NCBI RefSeq assembly: GCF_001046635.1
Contig: NZ_KQ130454.1
Location: forward strand, 255,501-319,500
Reading direction: 5' to 3'
Origin: Novosphingobium barchaimii LL02
GTDB lineage: Bacteria > Pseudomonadota > Alphaproteobacteria > Sphingomonadales > Sphingomonadaceae
Length of the DNA: 64,000 nt
The notes under the pieces were generated by a model. That model did no database searches and was not told where the DNA came from. It saw nothing but the letters and a program-made list of their open reading frames with translations. The translations under genes were made by a program, and so were the position numbers. Shown piece by piece: positions 1,839 through 15,339 of this stretch (its first letter is position 1; each line of letters opens with the position of its first letter).

Positions 1839-1915
1839 CGCCCCTTGTTCGCCCTTCGTCCGGCTGAACGGCCCCCATATGGATCGTCGCACGGGCGGGC
1901 TTTTGCATCCCCAGT

Positions 1916-1944
1916 GTGACGAACGGGTGACATATCGATGACAT
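1916..1944 (-). promoter_or_regulatory. Triple Pho box in front of the atypical response regulator
   Basis: Read on the minus strand, ATGTCAT (1944-1938), ATGTCAC (1933-1927) and TCGTCAC (1922-1916) are separated by 4-bp spacers, giving exact 11-bp periodicity. This matches the PhoB consensus CTGTCAT-N4-CTGTCAC. The site lies about 78 bp upstream of the ATG at 1838. Confidence 0.85.
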
Positions 1945-1974
1945 GGCGGTGAAACCCGAAAGACAAGCTGGCCA

Positions 1975-2003
1975 GTGTCATCGAACCGACCCGCAACCGT
2001 CAC
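1975..2003 (+). promoter_or_regulatory. Pho box in front of the plcP/agt-like operon
   Basis: On the plus strand GTGTCAT (1975-1981), CCGACCC (1986-1992, degenerate) and CCGTCAC (1997-2003) recur with an 11-bp period. The site is about 60 bp upstream of the ATG at 2062. It faces the opposite way from the Pho box at 1916-1944, so the 220-bp intergenic region looks like a divergent PhoB-controlled promoter. Confidence 0.7.
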
Positions 2004-2061
2004 GCCCACGCAACGCCCTCATGGCAAAGGACCCTGAGCAGACAGCCGGGGACGACTGACA

Positions 2062-2943
2062 ATGCGCGATAATGTAGACACCCTTCTCGCACGTGAAGCC
2101 GAACGCCGCAGTGGCATTCCGGCCTGGCTCGACATCCCCGAGCCGAAAGGCTTCCGCCCCAAACGCAAATACCGCACGATCTGGATTTCGGACATCCACC
2201 TGGGCACGCGCGGCTGCAATGCCGCCATGCTGGTTGACTTCCTGAGCGCGGTGGAGTGCGAGACGCTTTACCTCGTCGGAGACATCGTCGACGGCTGGCG
2301 CCTGCGCAAGGGATGGTACTGGCCCGACGCCCACAACGAAGTGGTACGCCGCATCCTCAAGATGGCCCACCGTGGCACTCGCGTGATCTTCATCGCCGGC
2401 AACCACGACGAAATGCTGCGCGACTATGCCGGCCTCAGCTTCGGCGGCGTGGAACTGGCGCTGGAATCAGTGCACACCACGCTTGACGGGCGCCGCCTGC
2501 TGGTGACCCACGGCGACGCCTTCGACGGCGTGGTGCTCTATGCCCGCTGGCTCGCCTTCCTTGGCGACAAGGCATACGGCCTGCTGCTGAGGGCCAATAT
2601 CGTCTTCAACGCCGTGCGCCGCCGCTTCAAGATGCCGTACTGGTCGCTTTCGGCCTACATGAAGAAGAAAGTGAAGAACGCCGTCCAGTACATCGGCAGC
2701 TACGAGGAAGCGGTCGCCAATGAAGCGATCAGCCGCGGCTTCGACGGCGTCGTCTGCGGCCACATCCACTGCGCGGAAATCCGCGAGTTCGGCGGCATCA
2801 CCTATTACAACGATGGCGACTGGGTCGAAAGCTGCACGGCGCTGGCGGAGGACCTGACAGGCAACCTCGCGATCATCGACTGGATCGCCGAAACCGGCGG
2901 CCACACCGTCATGCCCGAGGCACTGGCGGAGGCTTCCGCGTGA
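2062..2943 (+). CDS. PlcP-like metallophosphoesterase (LpxH-related fold)
   Basis: This 293-residue calcineurin-like phosphoesterase has all dimetal motifs: SDIHLG (D44, H46), GDIVDGW, GNHDE, THGD and GHIH. Automated annotation usually calls such proteins UDP-2,3-diacylglucosamine diphosphatase (LpxH). However, the length, the roughly 35-residue N-terminal extension, the downstream glycosyltransferase with a 4-bp overlap and the Pho box at 1975-2003 fit PlcP (Sinorhizobium SMc00171 type). PlcP is the phospholipase C that degrades phosphatidylcholine and phosphatidylethanolamine head groups under phosphate limitation, so the resulting diacylglycerol can be glycosylated. The fold is certain; the PlcP role is inferred from context. 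Confidence 0.85.
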   Translation: MRDNVDTLLAREAERRSGIPAWLDIPEPKGFRPKRKYRTIWISDIHLGTRGCNAAMLVDFLSAVECETLYLVGDIVDGWRLRKGWYWPDAHNEVVRRILKMAHRGTRVIFIAGNHDEMLRDYAGLSFGGVELALESVHTTLDGRRLLVTHGDAFDGVVLYARWLAFLGDKAYGLLLRANIVFNAVRRRFKMPYWSLSAYMKKKVKNAVQYIGSYEEAVANEAISRGFDGVVCGHIHCAEIREFGGITYYNDGDWVESCTALAEDLTGNLAIIDWIAETGGHTVMPEALAEASA

Positions 2944-4010
2944 AGCTGGCACTGGCAACCGACGCCTGGTTGCCGCAAGTCAACGGCGTCGTCCGTTCGC
3001 TGACCTCCACCGTCGATCATCTGACCCGCCGCGGGCACCAGGTCGAGACGGTCACGCCCGACCGCTTCCTGACCCTGCCGATGCCGGGCTATGCTTCGAT
3101 CCGGCTGGCGATGGCGCCGCGCTTCGGGGTCCGCCGTATGCTCGACAAGGCAGCGCCGGACATTGTCCACATCGCCACCGAAGGCCCGATCGGGTGGGCC
3201 GCCCGGGGATGGTGCCTGTCGCGCGGTGTGCCGTTCACGTCGGCGTTCCACACCCGCTTTCCCGAATATGCCGCCGTGCGCACCGGCCTTTCGGCAGAAT
3301 ATTTCTGGCCCATCCTCCAGCGCTTCCATGCCGAGAGCCAGGCGGTGATGGTTTCCACCCGCAGCCTCGCCGGAGAACTGGGCGAGCGCGGCATCGGCCC
3401 GACGCGGGCCTGGAGCCGCGGCATAGACCATTCCCAGTTCCGCCCCGACGGCCCGCGCCATCCGGCGATGGCCTCCCTTCCCGGCCCGGTCCTGCTCAAC
3501 GTCGGCCGCGTCGCGCCGGAAAAGAACCTCGAGACGTTCCTCAATCTCGACGTGCCCGGCAGCAAGGTCGTCGTCGGCGACGGCCCGGCGCTGGAAACCC
3601 TGCGCCGCCGCTATCCGCAAGTGCTGTTCCTCGGCTCGCTTTCCGGGCAGGAACTGGCCAGCGCATACCGCGCCGCCGACTGCTTCGTGTTCCCGAGCCT
3701 GACCGACACCTTCGGCCTGGTCATCATCGAGGCGCTGGCCTGCGGCACGCCGGTGGCGGCCTTCCCGGTCACCGGCCCGATCGATATCCTCGGCCTCGAC
3801 GGGCGCGGGGTCGACCACCGCGTAGGCTGGGCGGCAGGCGCCCTCGACACCTCGCTGGCCCGCGCCATCGAAGGCGCGCTCACGGCAGAGCGCAACGACG
3901 CAGCAGCACTGGGCAACCTCTATTCCTGGGAACGCGCGACCGACCAGTTCCTGGCCGCCATCGAAGGTGCCCTGCACCATGCCGAACGCGGATTGCTCTC
4001 CGCCGCCTAA
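2940..4010 (+). CDS. GT4-family glycosyltransferase, probable glycolipid-forming Agt
   Basis: This 356-residue GT-B glycosyltransferase begins at GTG 2940, overlapping the stop of the phosphoesterase (GTGA), so the two are translationally coupled. The N-terminal acceptor domain starts MKLALATDAWLPQVNGVVRS, the family opening for GDP-mannose or UDP-sugar dependent lipid glycosyltransferases. The C-terminal donor domain has GRVAPEKN near residue 186 and the E-x7-E signature in SLTDTFGLVIIEALACGTP. In marine and rhizobial alphaproteobacteria a linked plcP-agt pair replaces phospholipids with glycosyl-diacylglycerol during phosphate starvation; the Pho box before the pair supports that here. The sugar donor is not evident. 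The stop overlaps the convergent IclR gene by 4 bp. Confidence 0.85.
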   Translation: MKLALATDAWLPQVNGVVRSLTSTVDHLTRRGHQVETVTPDRFLTLPMPGYASIRLAMAPRFGVRRMLDKAAPDIVHIATEGPIGWAARGWCLSRGVPFTSAFHTRFPEYAAVRTGLSAEYFWPILQRFHAESQAVMVSTRSLAGELGERGIGPTRAWSRGIDHSQFRPDGPRHPAMASLPGPVLLNVGRVAPEKNLETFLNLDVPGSKVVVGDGPALETLRRRYPQVLFLGSLSGQELASAYRAADCFVFPSLTDTFGLVIIEALACGTPVAAFPVTGPIDILGLDGRGVDHRVGWAAGALDTSLARAIEGALTAERNDAAALGNLYSWERATDQFLAAIEGALHHAERGLLSAA

Positions 4011-4819
4011 CGAAAACCAAGGCTGCGTGAAATCGCGGCAGCCTCTTCCCGCACCAGCTGTCCCAATTCGTCCAGCCGGCCTTGCGCGCGGCCGCTGGGC
4101 GCGGCGATCACCAGCGCCCCGACGACGCGGGCGGATGCATCGCGGATCACGCTGGCCGATCCGGTCACGCCCTCGGCCGCCTGGTCCACAGTCTGCGCAT
4201 AGCCCCGTTCGCGGACCTGATCGACGATCTGCACCAGTGCGGCAGGATGGGTCACAGTGGCCGGGGAGAGCCTTTCCAGTGCAGCGCGCTTGAGATAGAC
4301 GTCCACCGCCGCCGGTGAACAGGTCGAAAGCAGCGCCCGTCCGCCAGCCGTCGCGTAGAACGGCCGCCGGTCACCGATCGAGACGGAATAGCGCACGACA
4401 TTGGGGCTCTCGACGAGATCCACATAGGTCACCTGATCGCCGTCATGATCGCCCACGGCCAGCAGCACCGTTTCACCGCTACGCTCGCACAGCCGGCGCA
4501 TTCCCGCGCGCACGAGGTCGGAGCTTTGCAAGCGCCGCCTCGCCTCGGTAAGCGCGCTGCCCAGTCCAAATGCACCAGGGCCCAGCCGCCAGGCCCCTTC
4601 GGCCGCAGTTACGAAATCCTCATCCGCCAAGCCGCGCAACAGGGCCGCAAGGCTGCTCTTCGGCGTCGCGAGACGGCGACTGAGGTCCGCGAGCGATACC
4701 GGCTCGGTACTGACACATAGAGCTTCCAGCAGGCGGATGACGCGGGTAACCGATTGGGGCGAACCGCCGCGGCGTTCCTCCCCCTTCTCTGCGTCCGCGT
4801 TCTGGTCTTCCCTACTCAA
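4007..4819 (-). CDS. IclR-family transcriptional regulator
   Basis: The 270-residue protein has an N-terminal winged helix (QSVTRVIRLLEALCVST, LADLSRRLATPKSSLAALLRG) and a C-terminal IclR effector domain (RPFYATAGGRALLS, GYAQTVDQAAEGVTGSA, VVGALVIAAPSGR). The start chosen is TTG at 4819, with GTGAGG five bases upstream; an ATG at 4870 would add 17 residues without a good ribosome site and would overlap the coding-like fragment at 4827-5030. IclR proteins usually control a neighbouring catabolic operon, but no obvious target adjoins it, so the ligand and regulon are unknown. The 3' end overlaps the convergent glycosyltransferase. Confidence 0.85.
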   Translation of the reverse strand: MSREDQNADAEKGEERRGGSPQSVTRVIRLLEALCVSTEPVSLADLSRRLATPKSSLAALLRGLADEDFVTAAEGAWRLGPGAFGLGSALTEARRRLQSSDLVRAGMRRLCERSGETVLLAVGDHDGDQVTYVDLVESPNVVRYSVSIGDRRPFYATAGGRALLSTCSPAAVDVYLKRAALERLSPATVTHPAALVQIVDQVRERGYAQTVDQAAEGVTGSASVIRDASARVVGALVIAAPSGRAQGRLDELGQLVREEAAAISRSLGFR

Positions 4820-4826
4820 ACCGGCC

Positions 4827-5030
4827 TCACTGAAATGCCGGGAGCACCTGCCCGGCGAAGGTCCCGGCATATGCGAGGAAGCGCTTCGCCGGAAGCCCGG
4901 GCGGCATCATCATGGTGAAATGCTCCACCAGCGCCTTTTCCCGCGGATTGCAAAAATGGGCGATGGCCTCGCCGGGCGTCAGGATCTGTAGAATGCCGCT
5001 GGCCTTTGCTGCGGCAAGGCGCGGGGGCGA
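4827..5030 (-). pseudogene. Coding-like fragment without a start, upstream of the IclR gene
   Basis: About 65 codons read open on the minus strand to a TGA at 4829-4827. The last ~55 (for example LTPGEAIAHFCNPREK and PPGLPAKRFLAYAGTF) show the strong third-position GC bias of real genes here. No good start or ribosome site precedes it: the only in-frame ATGs are the MMM run about 30 codons before the end, and the phoB hairpin at 5041-5066 cuts off the upstream side. Its stop overlaps the ribosome site of the IclR TTG start, as in a coupled operon. I do not recognise the family. It could be the 3' remnant of a deleted gene or a very small protein. Confidence 0.35.
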
Positions 5031-5073: not shown

Positions 5074-5766
5074 TTACGCCACGTCCATCGCGTAGCCGGC
5101 CGCGCGCACGGTGCGGATCGGATCGGTATCACCGTCGCGGTTGATGGCCTTGCGCAGGCGGCGGATGTGAACGTCCACCGTGCGCTCGTCGATGTCGGAG
5201 TCCATGCCCCAGACGCCGTCGAGGATCTGCTGGCGCGAAACCACCCGGTTCGGGCGCTCCATGAAGTAGCGCAGCAGGCGAAATTCAGTCGGCCCAAGGT
5301 GCAGCGCCTCGCCGGCGCGGCGAACGCGGTGGCTGGTGGCGTCAAGCTCGATATCGCCCCACGACAGCACGCTGCCCGAAAGCGACGGCCGCGCCCGGCG
5401 CAGGAGCGCCTCGATCCGGGCCATCAGCTCGCGCGGGGAGAATGGCTTTGTGACATAGTCATCCGCGCCGGTCTTGAGGCCGCGGATCATGTCCTCTTCC
5501 TCGCCCCGCGCGGTGACCATGATGATCGGGATCTGCGCGGTTTCCTTGTCCTTGCGCAGCTGGCGGCAGACCTCGATACCGGGCACCTGCTCGATCATCC
5601 AGTCGAGGACGATGGCGTCGGGTACCTGTTCGCGCACCATCACCAGCGCCTCTTCACCGTCACCGGTGGAGCGCACGTCGTAGCCTTCGGCGCTGAGGTT
5701 CCAAGTGAGGAGTTCGCACAGGGCGACGTCGTCCTCGACGACGAGGACGGAAGCGTTGGCGCTCAT
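5074..5766 (-). CDS. phoB: Phosphate regulon response regulator PhoB
   Basis: This 230-residue OmpR-family regulator has an intact receiver domain: acidic residues E11-D12-D13, phospho-Asp D55 (VLDWMIEQVPG), switch Thr T85 (MVTARG) and K107 (VTKPFS). The winged-helix domain contains TEFRLLRYFMERPNRVVSR and DERTVDVHIRRLRKAI. It would bind the 11-bp-repeat Pho boxes found at four promoters in this window. It is the last gene of pstSCAB-phoU-phoB and overlaps phoU by 4 bp (ATGA). Its kinase phoR lies apart, at 12582-13571, beyond the phosphate porin. Confidence 0.97.
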   Translation of the reverse strand: MSANASVLVVEDDVALCELLTWNLSAEGYDVRSTGDGEEALVMVREQVPDAIVLDWMIEQVPGIEVCRQLRKDKETAQIPIIMVTARGEEEDMIRGLKTGADDYVTKPFSPRELMARIEALLRRARPSLSGSVLSWGDIELDATSHRVRRAGEALHLGPTEFRLLRYFMERPNRVVSRQQILDGVWGMDSDIDERTVDVHIRRLRKAINRDGDTDPIRTVRAAGYAMDVA

Positions 5767-9536: not shown

Positions 9537-10583
9537 TTACTTCAGCTCGGACGGATCGAGCGGGGTCATCTTGGCAGCGATATCCGCGTTCTTGGTGCGC
9601 ACGTCCTCTGGTGCGATAACCATGCCCTTCTTCTTGAGAAGGCCGTCGGCGCCCCAGGACTTCACCCATTCCGCCACGTAGCCCTGCAGGCCCTTGATAG
9701 GCGCGAGGTGCTGCTTCTTGACGTAGATGTAAAGCGGACGGGCACCAGGATAAGTGTAGTCCGAAATCGTCTGGTAGGTGGGCTGGACGCCCGACATCGG
9801 GATACCCTTGATGCTGTCAGGGTTTTCTTCGAGGAACGAGAAGCCGAAGATGCCGATGGCCTTGGGGTTCTGCGAGATCTTCTGGACTATCAGGTTGTCG
9901 TTTTCGCCTGCGTCGACGTAGGGACCATCTTCGCGGATGTCGTGGCAGGTTGCCTCGTACTTGTCCTTGTCGCTGTCCTTGAGCGCCTTGGTGGCGGCGT
10001 CGGTCTTGCAGCCGGCTTCGAGGATCAGTTCCTTGAGCGCATCACGCGTGCCCGAGGTCGACGGCGGGCCGTAAACCAGGATCGGCTCGTTCGGGAGCGA
10101 AGGATTGACGTCCTTCCAGGTCTTGGCGGTGTTTGGCTTGCCGAAGGGGTTGGCTGCAAGCGCCTTGTAGATGTCGGTCGGGGTCAGGGCGAAGCCGGGT
10201 CCGGTCTTCGATTCGGCGAAGGCGATGCCATCAATGCCCACCTGGATCTCGACGATCTCCTTGACGCCGTTTTTCTGGCATTCCTCGTACTCGGACTTCT
10301 TGATCCGGCGCGAGGCGTCCTCGATGTCAGGGTGCTGGGCGCCGACGCCGGCGCAGAACAGCTTCATGCCCGCGCCCGTTCCGGTCGATTCGATTACCGG
10401 CGACTTGCTGCCGCTGGACTTGGCATAAGCCTCGGCGACGGAAGTCGCGAAGGGATACACGGTCGAGGAACCGACGCCGCGCACGAAATCGCGCGCCCCG
10501 GAGCCGGAATTGCCCGAACCACCGCAGGCGCTGAGCGCGGCCACGGAAACGGCGGCAAAGATGATGGTCTTGGTCGAACGCAT
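9537..10583 (-). CDS. pstS: Phosphate-binding lipoprotein PstS
   Basis: This 348-residue periplasmic binding protein has a lipoprotein signal ending in the lipobox LSAC with Cys20, so it is lipid-anchored. The phosphate-binding motifs include RGVGSSTVYPFAT near the mature N terminus, IESTGTGAG and PSTSGTRDAL. It captures phosphate for PstCAB. It is the first gene of the pst operon; a triple Pho box lies 50-78 bp upstream of the ATG at 10583. Confidence 0.97.
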   Translation of the reverse strand: MRSTKTIIFAAVSVAALSACGGSGNSGSGARDFVRGVGSSTVYPFATSVAEAYAKSSGSKSPVIESTGTGAGMKLFCAGVGAQHPDIEDASRRIKKSEYEECQKNGVKEIVEIQVGIDGIAFAESKTGPGFALTPTDIYKALAANPFGKPNTAKTWKDVNPSLPNEPILVYGPPSTSGTRDALKELILEAGCKTDAATKALKDSDKDKYEATCHDIREDGPYVDAGENDNLIVQKISQNPKAIGIFGFSFLEENPDSIKGIPMSGVQPTYQTISDYTYPGARPLYIYVKKQHLAPIKGLQGYVAEWVKSWGADGLLKKKGMVIAPEDVRTKNADIAAKMTPLDPSELK

Positions 10584-10632
10584 TTTGAATACCCCTTGGG
10601 CTTCTACTGTGGGATGCCCCTATTGGCCTTCA

Positions 10633-10661
10633 ATGACACTTCCATGACGATAAAGTGACAT
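10633..10661 (-). promoter_or_regulatory. Triple Pho box of the pst operon
   Basis: On the minus strand ATGTCAC (10661-10655), TCGTCAT (10650-10644) and GTGTCAT (10639-10633) recur every 11 bp with 4-bp spacers. This fits the PhoB consensus and lies 50 bp upstream of the pstS ATG. Confidence 0.9.
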
Positions 10662-11049
10662 AGATGGGGCAACGCCGGTTTTGTTCGGCAAAAACGACGG
10701 TATCCGGCGAATTGGCCGCCATTGTGACAGCGTGCGCGACTGATTGCCCGTCAGTTGCCTGACAGCCGCGCCGCCGCCTGCTCCGGGCTTCGGTTTAGAA
10801 CCCACCACGACTCATGGCAAGCGGGCTCGGCCGGGTGCGACATTCGTGCAGCGCCTCTCCACGGCGCACGCATGCCTCGCTTTGCCTTGCGCGCGGCGTA
10901 GATAGCCGTTGGCGAGTCAGACTGTAATCTTGCGACCATGTTGCCGCGACAATGCCATCGCGTATCTCATCGGATCAGGGGCCGGACATACAACGACATC
11001 GGCGGGGGACTGGGCATGCCATACCAAACAGGACGAGCAACTGGGGTTT

Positions 11050-11089
11050 GTGTCCCCAAAGTGTCATTTAACCGTCACTTTGAGGTCAT
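11050..11089 (+). promoter_or_regulatory. Pho boxes of the phosphate porin
   Basis: GTGTCCC (11050-11056, weaker), GTGTCAT (11061-11067), CCGTCAC (11072-11078) and AGGTCAT (11083-11089) are spaced at exactly 11 bp. They lie 47-86 bp upstream of the ATG at 11136. Confidence 0.88.
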
Positions 11090-11135
11090 ATTGGGCACTC
11101 GCAAGACGGACCTCTTGCGAAAGACAGCAATTCCC

Positions 11136-12539
11136 ATGCGTACCATCCTTCTCGTCGCAGCGGCGGCAAGCGCGACCACATTCGCGCAGCCAGCTTTCGC
11201 GCAGGCCGTCGATGCACAGGAAGCCGATGCGATGCGCGCAGAAATTCGCGAACTTCGCACCCGGCTTGAGGCTCTGGAAAGCCGTCTCGGCGCTCCAACA
11301 GCAGTTCAGGCCGATACCGCCGCGCCTGCGCCTGCACTCGCAGCAACCGCTACCGCTCCTGCAAACGCAGCGAAAAAGCCTGCGGACGAACCCGAGATCA
11401 AGTGGAAGGGCAGCCCGCAGATTGTCCAGGGCGACCAGGCATTCAAGGTAAAGGGCCGCATTCAGGCCGACGCCAACTACGTCTCCGCGCCCAAGGGCCT
11501 GGCCGACAAGGGACTGGGCTTCGGCAGCGAAATGCGCCGCATCCGCCTCGGCGGCGAAGGCGCGTTCGGCAGCCACCTGTCCTACAAGCTGGAATTGGAA
11601 CTGTCGGACAACGCGGTCGACCTCGTAGATACGTACATCACCTTCAAAGACGGCCCGTGGCAACTGCAGCTGGGCAACCAGAACGCCTTCTGGTCGCTGG
11701 ACGAGCTGACCGGCGATACCTCGGGCAGCACAATGGAACGGGCCGCCTTCACCGATGCGTTCGCCTTCGAGCGCCGCCTCGGCCTTGGCGCGCAATACAC
11801 ACGCGGCGCGCTGATGGCGCAGCTGGGCGTCTTCACCGATGACATCACCGCGCTTGCCAACAGCAGCGACGGTGTCAACGGCGGCGATGAGAACAACAGT
11901 TACAGCGTCGATGGCAGGTTGGTCTATTCCCCCAAGATTGGCGACATACAGCTGCACCTGGGCGCCTCTGCCCACTGGCGCCGCCTTGGCCGACTGACCG
12001 AAGCGAGCACCCGTTATCGCCAGCGCCCTTACGTACACTCCAGCAATACCCGCCTGATCGGTACGCCCGCGATGAACGTGGAGGACGAGACGATGTACGG
12101 CGCGGAGCTCGCGGCGATCTCGGGCCGCCTGCACGGCGTTGCAGAATACTATACCCTGAGCGCCAACCGCGTGGACCTGTCCTCGGTGGCCTTCCACGGC
12201 GCTTACGGCGAAGTCGGGTATTTCCTGACCAAGGGCGATACGCGCGGTTACAAGGGCGGCATCTTCACCACCAACGCGCCGGCACACCCGCTGGGCGACG
12301 GCGGCATCGGTTCGGTGCAGGTGAACCTGCGCTACGACTGGCTCGATCTCAACGACCGCGACATCCGGGGCGGCACGCAGGACGGCTATATCGCCGCGCT
12401 GGTGTGGTCGCCCGTCCAGTACCTGCGCTTCAACGTGAACTACGCGCTGATGCACTACACCGGCGCGACCGCCCTGCCCTCGGGCGACCGCAACTACGAT
12501 GCCAACGTCTTCGCGACGCGCTTCGAGTTCGATTTCTGA
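11136..12539 (+). CDS. Phosphate-selective porin (OprP/OprO family)
   Basis: The 467-residue outer-membrane protein starts with a signal peptide (MRTILLVAAAASATTFAQPAF with an AQA cleavage site). Next is a short coiled-coil (EIRELRTRLEALESRLG), an Ala/Pro linker, and a 16-strand-type barrel with OprP-family stretches such as GFGSEMRRIRLGGEGAFG and LELELSDNAVDLVDTYI. It ends in aromatic RFEFDF. OprP/OprO porins pass phosphate or polyphosphate across the outer membrane under starvation. The Pho boxes just upstream fit this role. The ATG at 11136 is chosen because it begins the signal peptide; upstream in-frame codons cross the Pho boxes. Confidence 0.92.
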   Translation: MRTILLVAAAASATTFAQPAFAQAVDAQEADAMRAEIRELRTRLEALESRLGAPTAVQADTAAPAPALAATATAPANAAKKPADEPEIKWKGSPQIVQGDQAFKVKGRIQADANYVSAPKGLADKGLGFGSEMRRIRLGGEGAFGSHLSYKLELELSDNAVDLVDTYITFKDGPWQLQLGNQNAFWSLDELTGDTSGSTMERAAFTDAFAFERRLGLGAQYTRGALMAQLGVFTDDITALANSSDGVNGGDENNSYSVDGRLVYSPKIGDIQLHLGASAHWRRLGRLTEASTRYRQRPYVHSSNTRLIGTPAMNVEDETMYGAELAAISGRLHGVAEYYTLSANRVDLSSVAFHGAYGEVGYFLTKGDTRGYKGGIFTTNAPAHPLGDGGIGSVQVNLRYDWLDLNDRDIRGGTQDGYIAALVWSPVQYLRFNVNYALMHYTGATALPSGDRNYDANVFATRFEFDF

Positions 12540-12546
12540 GGAAGCT

Positions 12547-12575
12547 TGGCGCCCCGGGTCATTGCCGGGGCGCCA
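12547..12575. terminator. Hairpin between porin and phoR
   Basis: TGGCGCCCCGG (12547-12557) and CCGGGGCGCCA (12565-12575) form a perfect 11-bp stem around a 7-nt loop. It lies between the converging ends of the porin (12539) and phoR (12582), where it could serve both; a short TTT at 12581-12583 lies just past it. Confidence 0.7.
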
Positions 12576-12581
12576 GGACCT

Positions 12582-13571
12582 TTATTCAGCGGGCTTCAGC
12601 GGCAGCATCAGTGAAGCCGTCGTGCCAACGGCGGGGCGGCTCTCGATGTCGAAACGGCCGCGGTGGCGCTCGACGATGTGCTTGACGATCGACAGGCCAA
12701 GCCCGGTCCCGCCCGCCGCGCGGCTGCGGCTGGTGTCCGCGCGGTAGAAACGCTCGGTCACGCGCGGCAGGTGCTCGGGCTTGATGCCCTCGCCTTCGTC
12801 GCGCACCGAAACCAGCACCCAGCCCGTGCTCGCAGCCTCGACGAGAACCTCGACCGGGCCATCGGGACGGGCGTACTTACGCGAATTGTCGATGAGGTTG
12901 CGCAGCACCTGCGAAAGCTGCCCCCGGTCGCCCGCGATCACTGCAGCAGCGCAGTTGGCTCGGACCGAAACCTGCGTGCCGTCGCGAAATTCGCCAGCCA
13001 CTTCGTGCGCCAGCGCGACCATATCGATGCTGTCGTGCGGCGCTTCGTGCTTCACCGCCTCGATGCGCGAGAGCGACATGAGATCCGAGATCAGCGCCTG
13101 CATACGCTGCGCTTCGTGGCGGATCGTGCCCAGGAACCGGCCGCGCAGCGCCTCGTCGCCGCCCGCCTTCGGGTTCATCAGCGTCTCGCAGTACCCGATC
13201 ACGTTGGCGAGCGGGGTGCGCAGTTCGTGGCTGGCATTGGCGACGAAATCGGCATGGGCCTTGGCCACGCTGATACGCTCCGACAGGTCGTACAGGCTGA
13301 CGATCCGCTCGTTCGGGCCGGCAACCTTGCAATCCACCTCCCACTCAGAGCCGCCGGTGGACAGCCCCTTGATCCGCGCCGAACCGCCCTTCTCGCTGAG
13401 GATCGCGGCGACCGCGCGCGGTTCGCGGATGGCGATACGGACGTCCTGGCCAACGATATGCGCGCCCAGCAGCGCCTTCGCGGCGCTGTTGGCGAAGCGA
13501 ACCTGACCGCGCGATACCATCATCGCCGGGGTCTGGAGGTATTCGAGGAGGTGGACGCCCTCGATGGTCAT
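12582..13571 (-). CDS. phoR: Phosphate regulon sensor kinase PhoR, without membrane segments
   Basis: This 329-residue histidine kinase has a short PAS-like domain (about 5-100), a HisKA dimerisation domain with H115 in NASHELRTPLAN, and an HATPase domain (N-box LRNLIDNSRKYA, then DEGEGIKPEHL, and GGTGLGLSIVKHI). No hydrophobic helix precedes the PAS domain, unlike E. coli PhoR, so it should be cytoplasmic or recruited through PhoU/PstB. The gene is separated from phoB by the pst operon and the porin, and no clear Pho box precedes it. Confidence 0.9.
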   Translation of the reverse strand: MTIEGVHLLEYLQTPAMMVSRGQVRFANSAAKALLGAHIVGQDVRIAIREPRAVAAILSEKGGSARIKGLSTGGSEWEVDCKVAGPNERIVSLYDLSERISVAKAHADFVANASHELRTPLANVIGYCETLMNPKAGGDEALRGRFLGTIRHEAQRMQALISDLMSLSRIEAVKHEAPHDSIDMVALAHEVAGEFRDGTQVSVRANCAAAVIAGDRGQLSQVLRNLIDNSRKYARPDGPVEVLVEAASTGWVLVSVRDEGEGIKPEHLPRVTERFYRADTSRSRAAGGTGLGLSIVKHIVERHRGRFDIESRPAVGTTASLMLPLKPAE

Positions 13572-13896
13572 GCGCGTATCTCTCCGGTGGTTCGTGATTG
13601 GCCATGCGCCGGAATTGCAGGCCGATCCAGCGCGCGTGACATGGTTTCACTACATTCTTGTTGCAACATTCGTATTCAAACACCCGAGAAATGACATTTT
13701 CGTGGCGATCGCGCTGGTGACAGCTTTGGAAAACATGCTTTGCAAGGTCCAAGCGGGCTAGCGCTCCGCAGACGGCGTGGCTATGCTGCATCTGCGTGGC
13801 CCATGCGTCGATGAACGGACGTAGGGCCAAAGACAGCCAGACAATGGTACATGACGGAAGCGAGGAGGAGCGCGACCGTTCGGTGGAAAGGTATCC
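13572..13896. other. Divergent phoR/zwf intergenic region (325 bp)
   Basis: No gene is seen. A 10-bp palindrome TGTTGCAACA lies at 13659-13668. Single TGTCA-type half-sites occur on the minus strand but not at an 11-bp period, so I do not call a Pho box. The zwf ribosome site (GGAAAGG, 13885-13891) closes the region. Confidence 0.5.
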
Positions 13897-15339
13897 GTGA
13901 CGCAATTCACTTCCGATCGCCTGCTCCTCTTCGGCGCCACAGGTGATCTCTCCCGCAGGATGTTGCTCCCTTCGCTTTGCGCGCTCGACGCGGAAGGTCT
14001 GCTTGGTTCGCACATCGAAATCATCGGCACCGCCCGGTCCGACATGGATGACCTGGGCTTTCGTAATTTCGCGCGTGAAGCGCTTGAACAGTTCCTTCCT
14101 GCCAACCGGCGCGGCGGCATCGCCCAATTCCTCAATCGGTTGAGCTATCAGCCGCTCGACGCCAACGACATCGACCACTTCCAGGCCCTGGCCGAAAAAG
14201 TGGGCACCCCCGAAAAGGGCCTGTCGATCTTCCTGTCGACCGCGCCCAGCCTGTTCGAGGCGACCATCCATGGTCTCGAAAAAAGCGGCCTGGCCGGTCC
14301 CAACGTGCGGATCGGCCTGGAAAAGCCGCTCGGCATCGACCTTGCCTCCAGCAAGGTCATCAACGACGCCGTCCACCATGCCTTTCCCGAGGACCGGATT
14401 TACCGGATCGACCATTACCTCGGCAAGGAAACGGTCCAGAACCTGCTGGCGCTGCGCTTCGCCAACCTGATGTTCGAACCGCTATGGAACGCGGCGCATA
14501 TCGACCATGTGCAGATCACCGTGTCCGAGACCGTCGGCCTCGAATCGCGGGTCGGCTATTATGACGATTCGGGCGCGCTGCGCGACATGGTGCAGAACCA
14601 CATGCTCCAGCTGCTCGCGCTCGTGGCGATGGAGCCCCCGGTTTCATACGACGCCACCAACGTGCGCGACGAGAAGGTGAAGGTCCTGCGCTCCCTGCGC
14701 AAGGTCAACGTGGAGGACACCGTCACCGGCCAGTACCGCGCGGGCGCCATCGGCGGCCAGGCCGTGCCCGGCTACGACGACGAACTCGGCAAGGATTCGG
14801 ACACCGAGACCTTCGTCGCGATCAAGGCCCATATCGACAACTGGCGCTGGCAGGGCGTGCCCTTCTATCTGCGCACCGGCAAGCGCATGCCCAAGCGCAC
14901 GACCGAAATCGTCGTGCAGTTCCGCGATGTGCCGCACTCGATCTTCACCGGTCGGGGCGCGAAGACGGTGCCAAACCGCCTCGTCATCGGGCTCCAACCG
15001 GAAGAGAACATCACGCTCTCGCTGATGGCCAAGGTTCCGGGGCTGGACCGCAATGGCTACGGCCTGCGCTCGGTGCCGCTGGCGATCACCACGCCCGATG
15101 CTTTTGCCGGGCCGCAGCGGCGCATCGCTTACGAACGCCTGCTGCTCGACCTGATCGAAGGCGACCAGACACTGTTCGTCCGCCGCGACGAAGTGGAGGC
15201 TCAGTGGGAGTGGATCGACGCGATCCGGGCCGGCTGGGAGGAACAGCAGCAGACGCCCAAGACTTACACATCCGGAAGCTGGGGCCCCTCGGCCGCCATC
15301 GCGCTCGCCGAGCGCAATGGCGTCACATGGCACGAATAA
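13897..15339 (+). CDS. zwf: Glucose-6-phosphate 1-dehydrogenase
   Basis: The 480-residue enzyme oxidises glucose-6-phosphate to 6-phosphogluconolactone with NAD(P)+. The dinucleotide site is GATGDLSRR near residue 13, and the substrate-binding/catalytic signature RIDHYLGKE lies near residue 171. The start is GTG at 13897, with GGAAAGG five bases upstream. It heads the Entner-Doudoroff set zwf-edd-glk-eda, the main glycolytic route in sphingomonads. No 6-phosphogluconolactonase (pgl) gene is included in this cluster. Confidence 0.97.
   Translation: MTQFTSDRLLLFGATGDLSRRMLLPSLCALDAEGLLGSHIEIIGTARSDMDDLGFRNFAREALEQFLPANRRGGIAQFLNRLSYQPLDANDIDHFQALAEKVGTPEKGLSIFLSTAPSLFEATIHGLEKSGLAGPNVRIGLEKPLGIDLASSKVINDAVHHAFPEDRIYRIDHYLGKETVQNLLALRFANLMFEPLWNAAHIDHVQITVSETVGLESRVGYYDDSGALRDMVQNHMLQLLALVAMEPPVSYDATNVRDEKVKVLRSLRKVNVEDTVTGQYRAGAIGGQAVPGYDDELGKDSDTETFVAIKAHIDNWRWQGVPFYLRTGKRMPKRTTEIVVQFRDVPHSIFTGRGAKTVPNRLVIGLQPEENITLSLMAKVPGLDRNGYGLRSVPLAITTPDAFAGPQRRIAYERLLLDLIEGDQTLFVRRDEVEAQWEWIDAIRAGWEEQQQTPKTYTSGSWGPSAAIALAERNGVTWHE

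Follow-up and report, generated by a model that had tools for sequence, protein, structure and literature searches.

Introduction

In the established view, PhoR and PhoU control the phosphate response through their action on PhoB. Pho boxes such as the pstS sites consist of tandem TGTCA-type units spaced at 11 bp. In E. coli PhoB the bases are contacted by T194, V197, R201 and R219, and the substitutions W184R and G185R abolish activation (PMC3973317).

Several described systems resemble parts of the locus reported here. In Erythrobacter sp. NAP1, plcP is followed by agt and the lipids MGDG, GADG and DGTS rise under P limitation; putative Pho boxes are described in plcP clusters (PMC4796936). 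The term "response regulator" is absent from the main text of that paper. ChxR and HP1043 are regulators with a degenerate receiver active site and a retained winged-helix effector (PMC3960148). In Caulobacter the lipoprotein ElpS (CC0170), which is made under phosphate starvation, is encoded beside the TonB receptor CC0171 (PMC2996285).

The DNA analysed was a stretch of 64,000 nucleotides from Novosphingobium barchaimii LL02 (the window), and the feature under study is an intergenic gap of 223 bp (1839-2061) flanked by the gene of a PhoB-like response regulator, RR, on the minus strand and by a phosphoesterase gene on the plus strand. The gap proved to be real, conserved and largely explicable. 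What appears to be new, reading from the sequence, is a PhoB-like atypical regulator, found mainly in part of the Sphingomonadales, whose gene is preceded by a conserved Pho-type box of its own; a lipoprotein-TonB receptor pair is its neighbour more often than lipid genes are. No literature on RR was found by title or abstract start, in a search with most subscription journals outside its coverage, and the phrase "atypical response regulator" was absent from the 8 papers listed of 1,345 matches.

Results and discussion

The gap lies close to the core phosphate genes. Beyond the lipid genes described below there is an IclR-type regulator (4007-4870, minus), followed within the first 13.6 kb of the window by PhoB, PhoU, PstB, PstA, PstC and PstS (all minus), a phosphate-selective porin (plus; PF07396) and a PhoR-like kinase (minus). 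The PhoB (5074-5766, minus) is canonical, matching TIGR02154 with 333.4 bits, above the cut-off. PstS was recognised by PF12849 and by a TIGR02136 hit below cut-off, and the kinase is likewise below its NCBIfam cut-off.

RR (1152-1838, minus, with its ATG at 1838-1836) is a protein of 228 aa containing the Pfam domains Response_reg, matched from residue 50 only, and Trans_reg_C. Its best NCBIfam match was PhoB itself (TIGR02154, 151.8 bits), followed by another PhoB model at 107.5, and it falls well short of the TIGR02154 equivalog cut-off of 296.2 bits. The nearest homologue, 97% identical, is from Novosphingobium sp. 18050. A tree of 41 regulators, 13 of them RRs, placed the RRs in one clade (94/91); joined at their base by a more diverged protein, L216 (100/99, branch 1.52), they grouped with PhoB (90/81).

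The receiver of RR is altered. The phospho-accepting D53 is retained in 80 of 81 aligned rows, but the switch threonine is replaced by leucine and the lysine by glycine, each in 80 of the 81; the first residue of the acidic pair is absent from every row, while 76 rows have Glu or Asp at the second. RR may still be phosphorylated to some extent, as this acidic residue and the aspartate are kept. An AlphaFold model built from 40 sequences (mean pLDDT 85.9) had no helical segment across residues 9-60, so that receiver alpha1 and alpha2 are missing from it; the blocks in this region had mean pLDDT values of 70-89. A canonical response regulator has the acidic pair, phospho-Asp, switch Thr/Ser and Lys all present; RR does not, and combines a degenerate receiver active site with an intact effector domain, as an atypical response regulator does. 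In this it resembles ChxR and HP1043, but ChxR, in the account given in PMC3960148, is without the phospho-accepting aspartate that RR keeps, and RR differs from both in grouping with PhoB, in keeping the base-reading set of PhoB and in having a Pho-type box upstream.

That base-reading set, T194, V197, R201 and R219 in E. coli PhoB numbering, is invariant in 40 aligned RRs. Among the 21 OmpR-type proteins of Sphingomonas sp. IC081 (genome G002) the four residues occur together in just three: PhoB, RR and one other. RR probably binds Pho-type sites, to judge from these residues. H198 and R200 of PhoB are replaced by W and G respectively, which may change affinity or target. The activation surface is also changed, positions 184 and 185 being G and K in all 81 rows, whereas at V190 and D192, the other two positions at which activation of PhoB is abolished, RR is the same as or similar to the PhoB of the window. 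Loss of W184 is no proof of lost activation because residue 184 varies across the OmpR-type family (W in 5 of the 21 proteins of G002).

On the other side of the gap is a calcineurin-type, PlcP-like phosphoesterase (2062-2943, plus; Pfam Metallophos), whose stop is overlapped by 4 bp by the gene of an Agt-like family-4 glycosyltransferase (2940-4010, plus; Pfam Glyco_transf_4 and Glycos_transf_1). Of 35 fetched loci, 34 had all five metal-site motifs of the phosphoesterase and one had four of them, and the glycosyltransferase gene followed directly in all 35. The protein is only distantly related to LpxH (TIGR01854, 42.5 bits against a cut-off of 190.35). The calcineurin-type metal site, together with an operon containing a gene for a non-phosphorus lipid, identifies the first gene as plcP-like from sequence alone, and the position of the family-4 glycosyltransferase gene directly after it identifies the second as agt-like. 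Thus the preliminary description was right in placing an atypical PhoB-like regulator on one arm and a PlcP-like phosphoesterase with a glycosyltransferase on the other, and in proposing a phosphate context. Homologues of the phosphoesterase, one each at 57-61%, were found in Erythrobacter- or Porphyrobacter-titled genomes (loci L049, L060 and L076). The likeness to the operon described in PMC4796936 is one of gene type and gene order, with a Pho-type box upstream; what differs is the divergent regulator gene that adjoins it in Novosphingobium-type loci. The plus-strand box in front of a plcP-agt-like operon adds a further example to a type of arrangement already described, and by analogy the operon would serve the replacement of phospholipids by glycolipids.

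The gap contains two arrays of 11-bp period in opposite orientations. The array directed towards RR (1916-1965, minus) has units starting, in the direction of RR, with TGTCT at 1965, TTTCA at 1954, TGTCA at 1943, TGTCA at 1932 and CGTCA at 1921; its core is the triple at 1916-1944 that had been noticed initially. The best triple agrees with three TGTCA units at 14 of 15 positions, a score that first-order Markov shuffling of the gap did not reach on either strand in 5000 trials. The box directed towards the phosphoesterase gene (1976-2003, plus) reads TGTCATCGAAC CGACCCGCAAC CGTCAC. Against the bare consensus it scored only 11/15, a value reached by 5.1% of shuffles on either strand and by 1.3% on the plus strand; the score is weaker because the middle unit, CGACC, is degenerate. 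In this degenerate unit the box departs from the usual Pho box, as the minus array does in preceding a gene for a PhoB-like protein other than PhoB itself; in other respects both arrays match the Pho boxes of pstS and the porin, with a canonical PhoB encoded nearby.

A 29-bp matrix that takes account of the spacers was trained on 25 of 29 pstS promoters of relatives, the 25 being those retained by the bare-consensus criterion, with no gap sequence included. The minus array scored 18.1 and the plus box 17.3, and neither score was reached in 1000 Markov shuffles of the gap. Among some 128,000 positions of the window these scores rank 4 and 6, and in the eight best positions listed for each strand scores above 10 were confined to the gap boxes and the pstS and porin promoters. 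In the 64-kb window three places have triples that match TGTCA at 11-bp spacing with at least 12/15: the array towards RR, the pstS promoter (box at 10632-10660, minus, for pstS at 9537-10583, minus) and the porin promoter (box at 11051-11089, plus). Both gap boxes are thus of the pstS type, the plus box only when the spacers are taken into account. The true start of the porin reading frame (10938-12539) probably lies downstream of its box. No sigma-70 consensus promoter was found in 1100-2200, which fits PhoB-type promoters without proving them.

Conservation was assessed in an alignment of 39 gaps, namely that of the window and those of 38 of the 41 phosphoesterase-bearing loci among the best 80 of 468 relatives (L022, L023 and L024, which have longer gaps, were omitted). 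Of 51 window columns at least 80% identical, 37 fall in the boxes, 6 at 2009-2014, 3 at 1904-1906 and 5 are scattered. The outermost unit of the minus array (1965) is not conserved. The commonest form towards RR is (C/T)GTCACCGATA TGTCACCCGTT CGTCACA and that towards the phosphoesterase TGTCAYNGAAC TGACCCGCAAC CGTCAC. The six columns at 2009-2014 (CGCAAC, plus) follow the final unit of the plus box by one 11-bp step and are possibly a weak fourth unit. The short patch at 1904-1906, just beyond the minus array, may be a promoter element.

When the pstS matrix was applied to the loci, all 41 RR upstreams with a phosphoesterase neighbour scored at least 12 and 40 of the 41 phosphoesterase upstreams at least 10, compared with 13 of 800 random 200-bp segments at this lower threshold. 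The claim that two opposite Pho-type repeats share the gap has thus withstood consensus scoring, an independently trained matrix and comparison with relatives. The boxes are almost certainly real and very probably driven by PhoB.

At one locus, L025 (Novosphingobium sp. HII-3), an IclR-type match was seen 5' of 8001 at the place expected for the phosphoesterase; the locus gave no phosphoesterase or glycosyltransferase hit, yet its RR upstream scored 18.3.

In loci lacking a phosphoesterase hit the picture is different. Here only 12 of 39 RR upstreams scored at least 10 by the pstS matrix, "no hit" referring to the locus sequence compared, which in some cases is short on that side. Nevertheless a core pattern chosen after inspection of the loci, GTCAY-N6-GTCAY, was found upstream of RR in 37 of these 39 and in 78 of the best 80 of 468 relatives overall, compared with 6 of 800 random segments; as the loci and genomes are related to one another, these counts are not independent. 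Relative to the estimated RR start, 25 of the 39 have the core at -55 to -60 and 9 have it at -44 to -46. The minus box can thus be assigned to RR irrespective of a phosphoesterase neighbour because of this distribution of the core. Outside Novosphingobium-type loci the first letter of the box tends to be A or C rather than T, giving (A/C)GTCAC; as this is unlike pstS, the RR box might be another class of site. Of the pstS promoters in 14 other RR-bearing genomes, 6 had a perfect pair of TGTCA units 11 bp apart and 8 a GTCAY pair.

These observations raise the possibility that the minus array is an autoregulatory site of RR, that PhoB controls the plus box only and that the sharing of one gap is an accident of gene order. 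The persistence of the core whatever the neighbour, its drift towards (A/C)GTCAC and the rarity of a phosphoesterase near RR (see below) are what such a site would lead one to expect. However, the minus array scores at least 12 by the pstS matrix in every locus with a plcP-like neighbour, and within the window it ranks, with pstS and the porin, among the three top places. This explanation is considered rather doubtful.

The distribution of RR was examined in 147 Sphingomonadales genomes, the order-wide searches for RR, the phosphoesterase and the lipoprotein covering 147 genomes each and being taken as one set. RR was present in 25 at E 7.1e-47 or better, the cut being made between this value and 3.2e-42. 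The weakest of these, e.g. G138 (44% identity), may hold a second paralogue instead. A class-wide search of 240 genomes at E 1e-42 returned RR only from the starting genome. A few of the 80 RR loci are in records with other titles, and the record of L045 is titled, as given, Actinobacteria.

The usual neighbour of RR is not the phosphoesterase. A lipoprotein gene was found within 10 kb of RR in 22 of the 25 RR genomes (not in G124, G151 or G138), and in the best 80 of 468 relatives a TonB receptor was present in 64 loci and the lipoprotein in 59. The order RR, receptor, lipoprotein, convergent with RR, was seen in 58 of the 59 loci having both. The lipoprotein (12405-14015 in locus L010, and its relatives; 536 aa) had no match in Pfam, NCBIfam or the PDB, the last searched to E 1. 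A box of the form TGTCAY-N5-CGCCAACA-N3-TGTCA lies upstream of its gene in 19 of the 59 loci with a lipoprotein hit. It is conceivable that RR serves as a dedicated regulator of the adjoining lipoprotein-TonB receptor locus, as its proximity, the fixed gene order and the Pho-like boxes in front of many lipoprotein genes suggest. RR-less genomes, however, likewise contain the lipoprotein gene with Pho-like boxes, and a search for a site peculiar to RR-bearing genomes found none, which makes such a role rather unlikely. That RR binding is marked by the degenerate middle unit seen in the plcP and lipoprotein boxes was considered and rejected, as such units are present in RR-less genomes too, e.g. 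G104, G042 and G087.

The lipoprotein-receptor pair recalls ElpS and CC0171 of Caulobacter, as described in PMC2996285, in that a lipoprotein gene adjoins a TonB receptor gene. The likeness is in gene order only. Type II secretion genes flanking the lipoprotein gene, as in Caulobacter, were looked for among 10 ORFs from 4 loci and none was present. Five of these 10 ORFs had Pfam hits, all to TPR, lytic transglycosylase or TrbC/VirB2. In L050 and L060 a TPR protein and a lytic transglycosylase are encoded on the far side of the lipoprotein gene, joined in L050 by a TrbC/VirB2-like pilin gene. In some RR-less genomes (e.g. G083, G062 and G080) a single open frame, some 900-1000 codons long, contains two lipoprotein-like matches and so represents a fused or tandem form.

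The preliminary description had regarded RR as the local controller of the PlcP-Agt lipid operon, in a local circuit adjusting lipid replacement. This was only partly right, because a phosphoesterase is near RR in very few genomes and the lipoprotein gene in most: the Pho-type boxes on both arms stand, but the role assigned to RR is not supported. A divergent RR/phosphoesterase arrangement is indeed found in 41 of the 80 RR loci (the best 80 of 468 relatives), with the RR-ward box scoring in all 41 and the plcP-ward box in 40. Order-wide, however, the phosphoesterase lies within 10 kb of RR in 2 of the 25 RR genomes (G001 and G152), and of the 73 genomes containing it 21 are among the 25 with RR and 52 among the 122 without. 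Local control of the lipid operon by RR is unlikely; the common thread of the two is the Pho regulon. That the repeats are chance matches, for which only the 11/15 of the plus box on the bare consensus speaks, can be dismissed, as their matrix scores were never reached by shuffles and they are conserved in relatives.

The explanation that we favour, and consider probable, is a two-way promoter of the Pho regulon combined with a degenerated PhoB duplicate that reads Pho-type sites and more likely damps PhoB. Under phosphate limitation PhoB on the plus box would switch on the phosphoesterase-glycosyltransferase operon, and on the minus array it would switch on RR. RR, as a duplicated and degenerated PhoB independent of ordinary phosphorylation and still reading TGTCA/GTCAC-type sites, would then act in feedback on the promoter of its own gene as well as on other Pho promoters. 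It would more likely damp the output of PhoB than add to it, because the base-reading residues are kept whereas two activation residues and much of the switch are replaced. That RR acts mainly as a brake is nevertheless put forward tentatively from these residues, and activation through another contact is possible. More speculatively, RR may be a lineage-specific decoy PhoB, induced by PhoB through a Pho box and reading the same boxes without much of the phosphorylation switch or the usual sigma contact, and so a kinase-independent brake. If true, a copy of PhoB with the reading head and without much of the switch would place a separate, protein-level ceiling on the phosphate response, and one class of site would link the core phosphate genes of a single bacterial group with an operon for lipid remodelling and with a lipoprotein-receptor pair of the outer membrane.

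L216, from Sphingomonas sp. IC081 (protein start near 1051, plus), is a second atypical PhoB-like regulator. It has the same LGK loop as RR and the same receiver leucine and glycine, and its upstream region has no strong Pho box (best matrix score 4.1). As a second, more diverged paralogue it would make decoy PhoBs a small family.

On the far side of RR the window begins within a TonB-dependent receptor gene, of which only the C-terminal part (3-209, plus) is included, as judged by eye from the reading frames; the same receptor is present at the matching place in locus L001. Between it and RR is a GDT1-type transporter gene (450-1109), and directly upstream of this gene a yybP-ykoY manganese riboswitch was found (319-438, plus; Rfam RF00080, 46.6 bits, cut-off 45).
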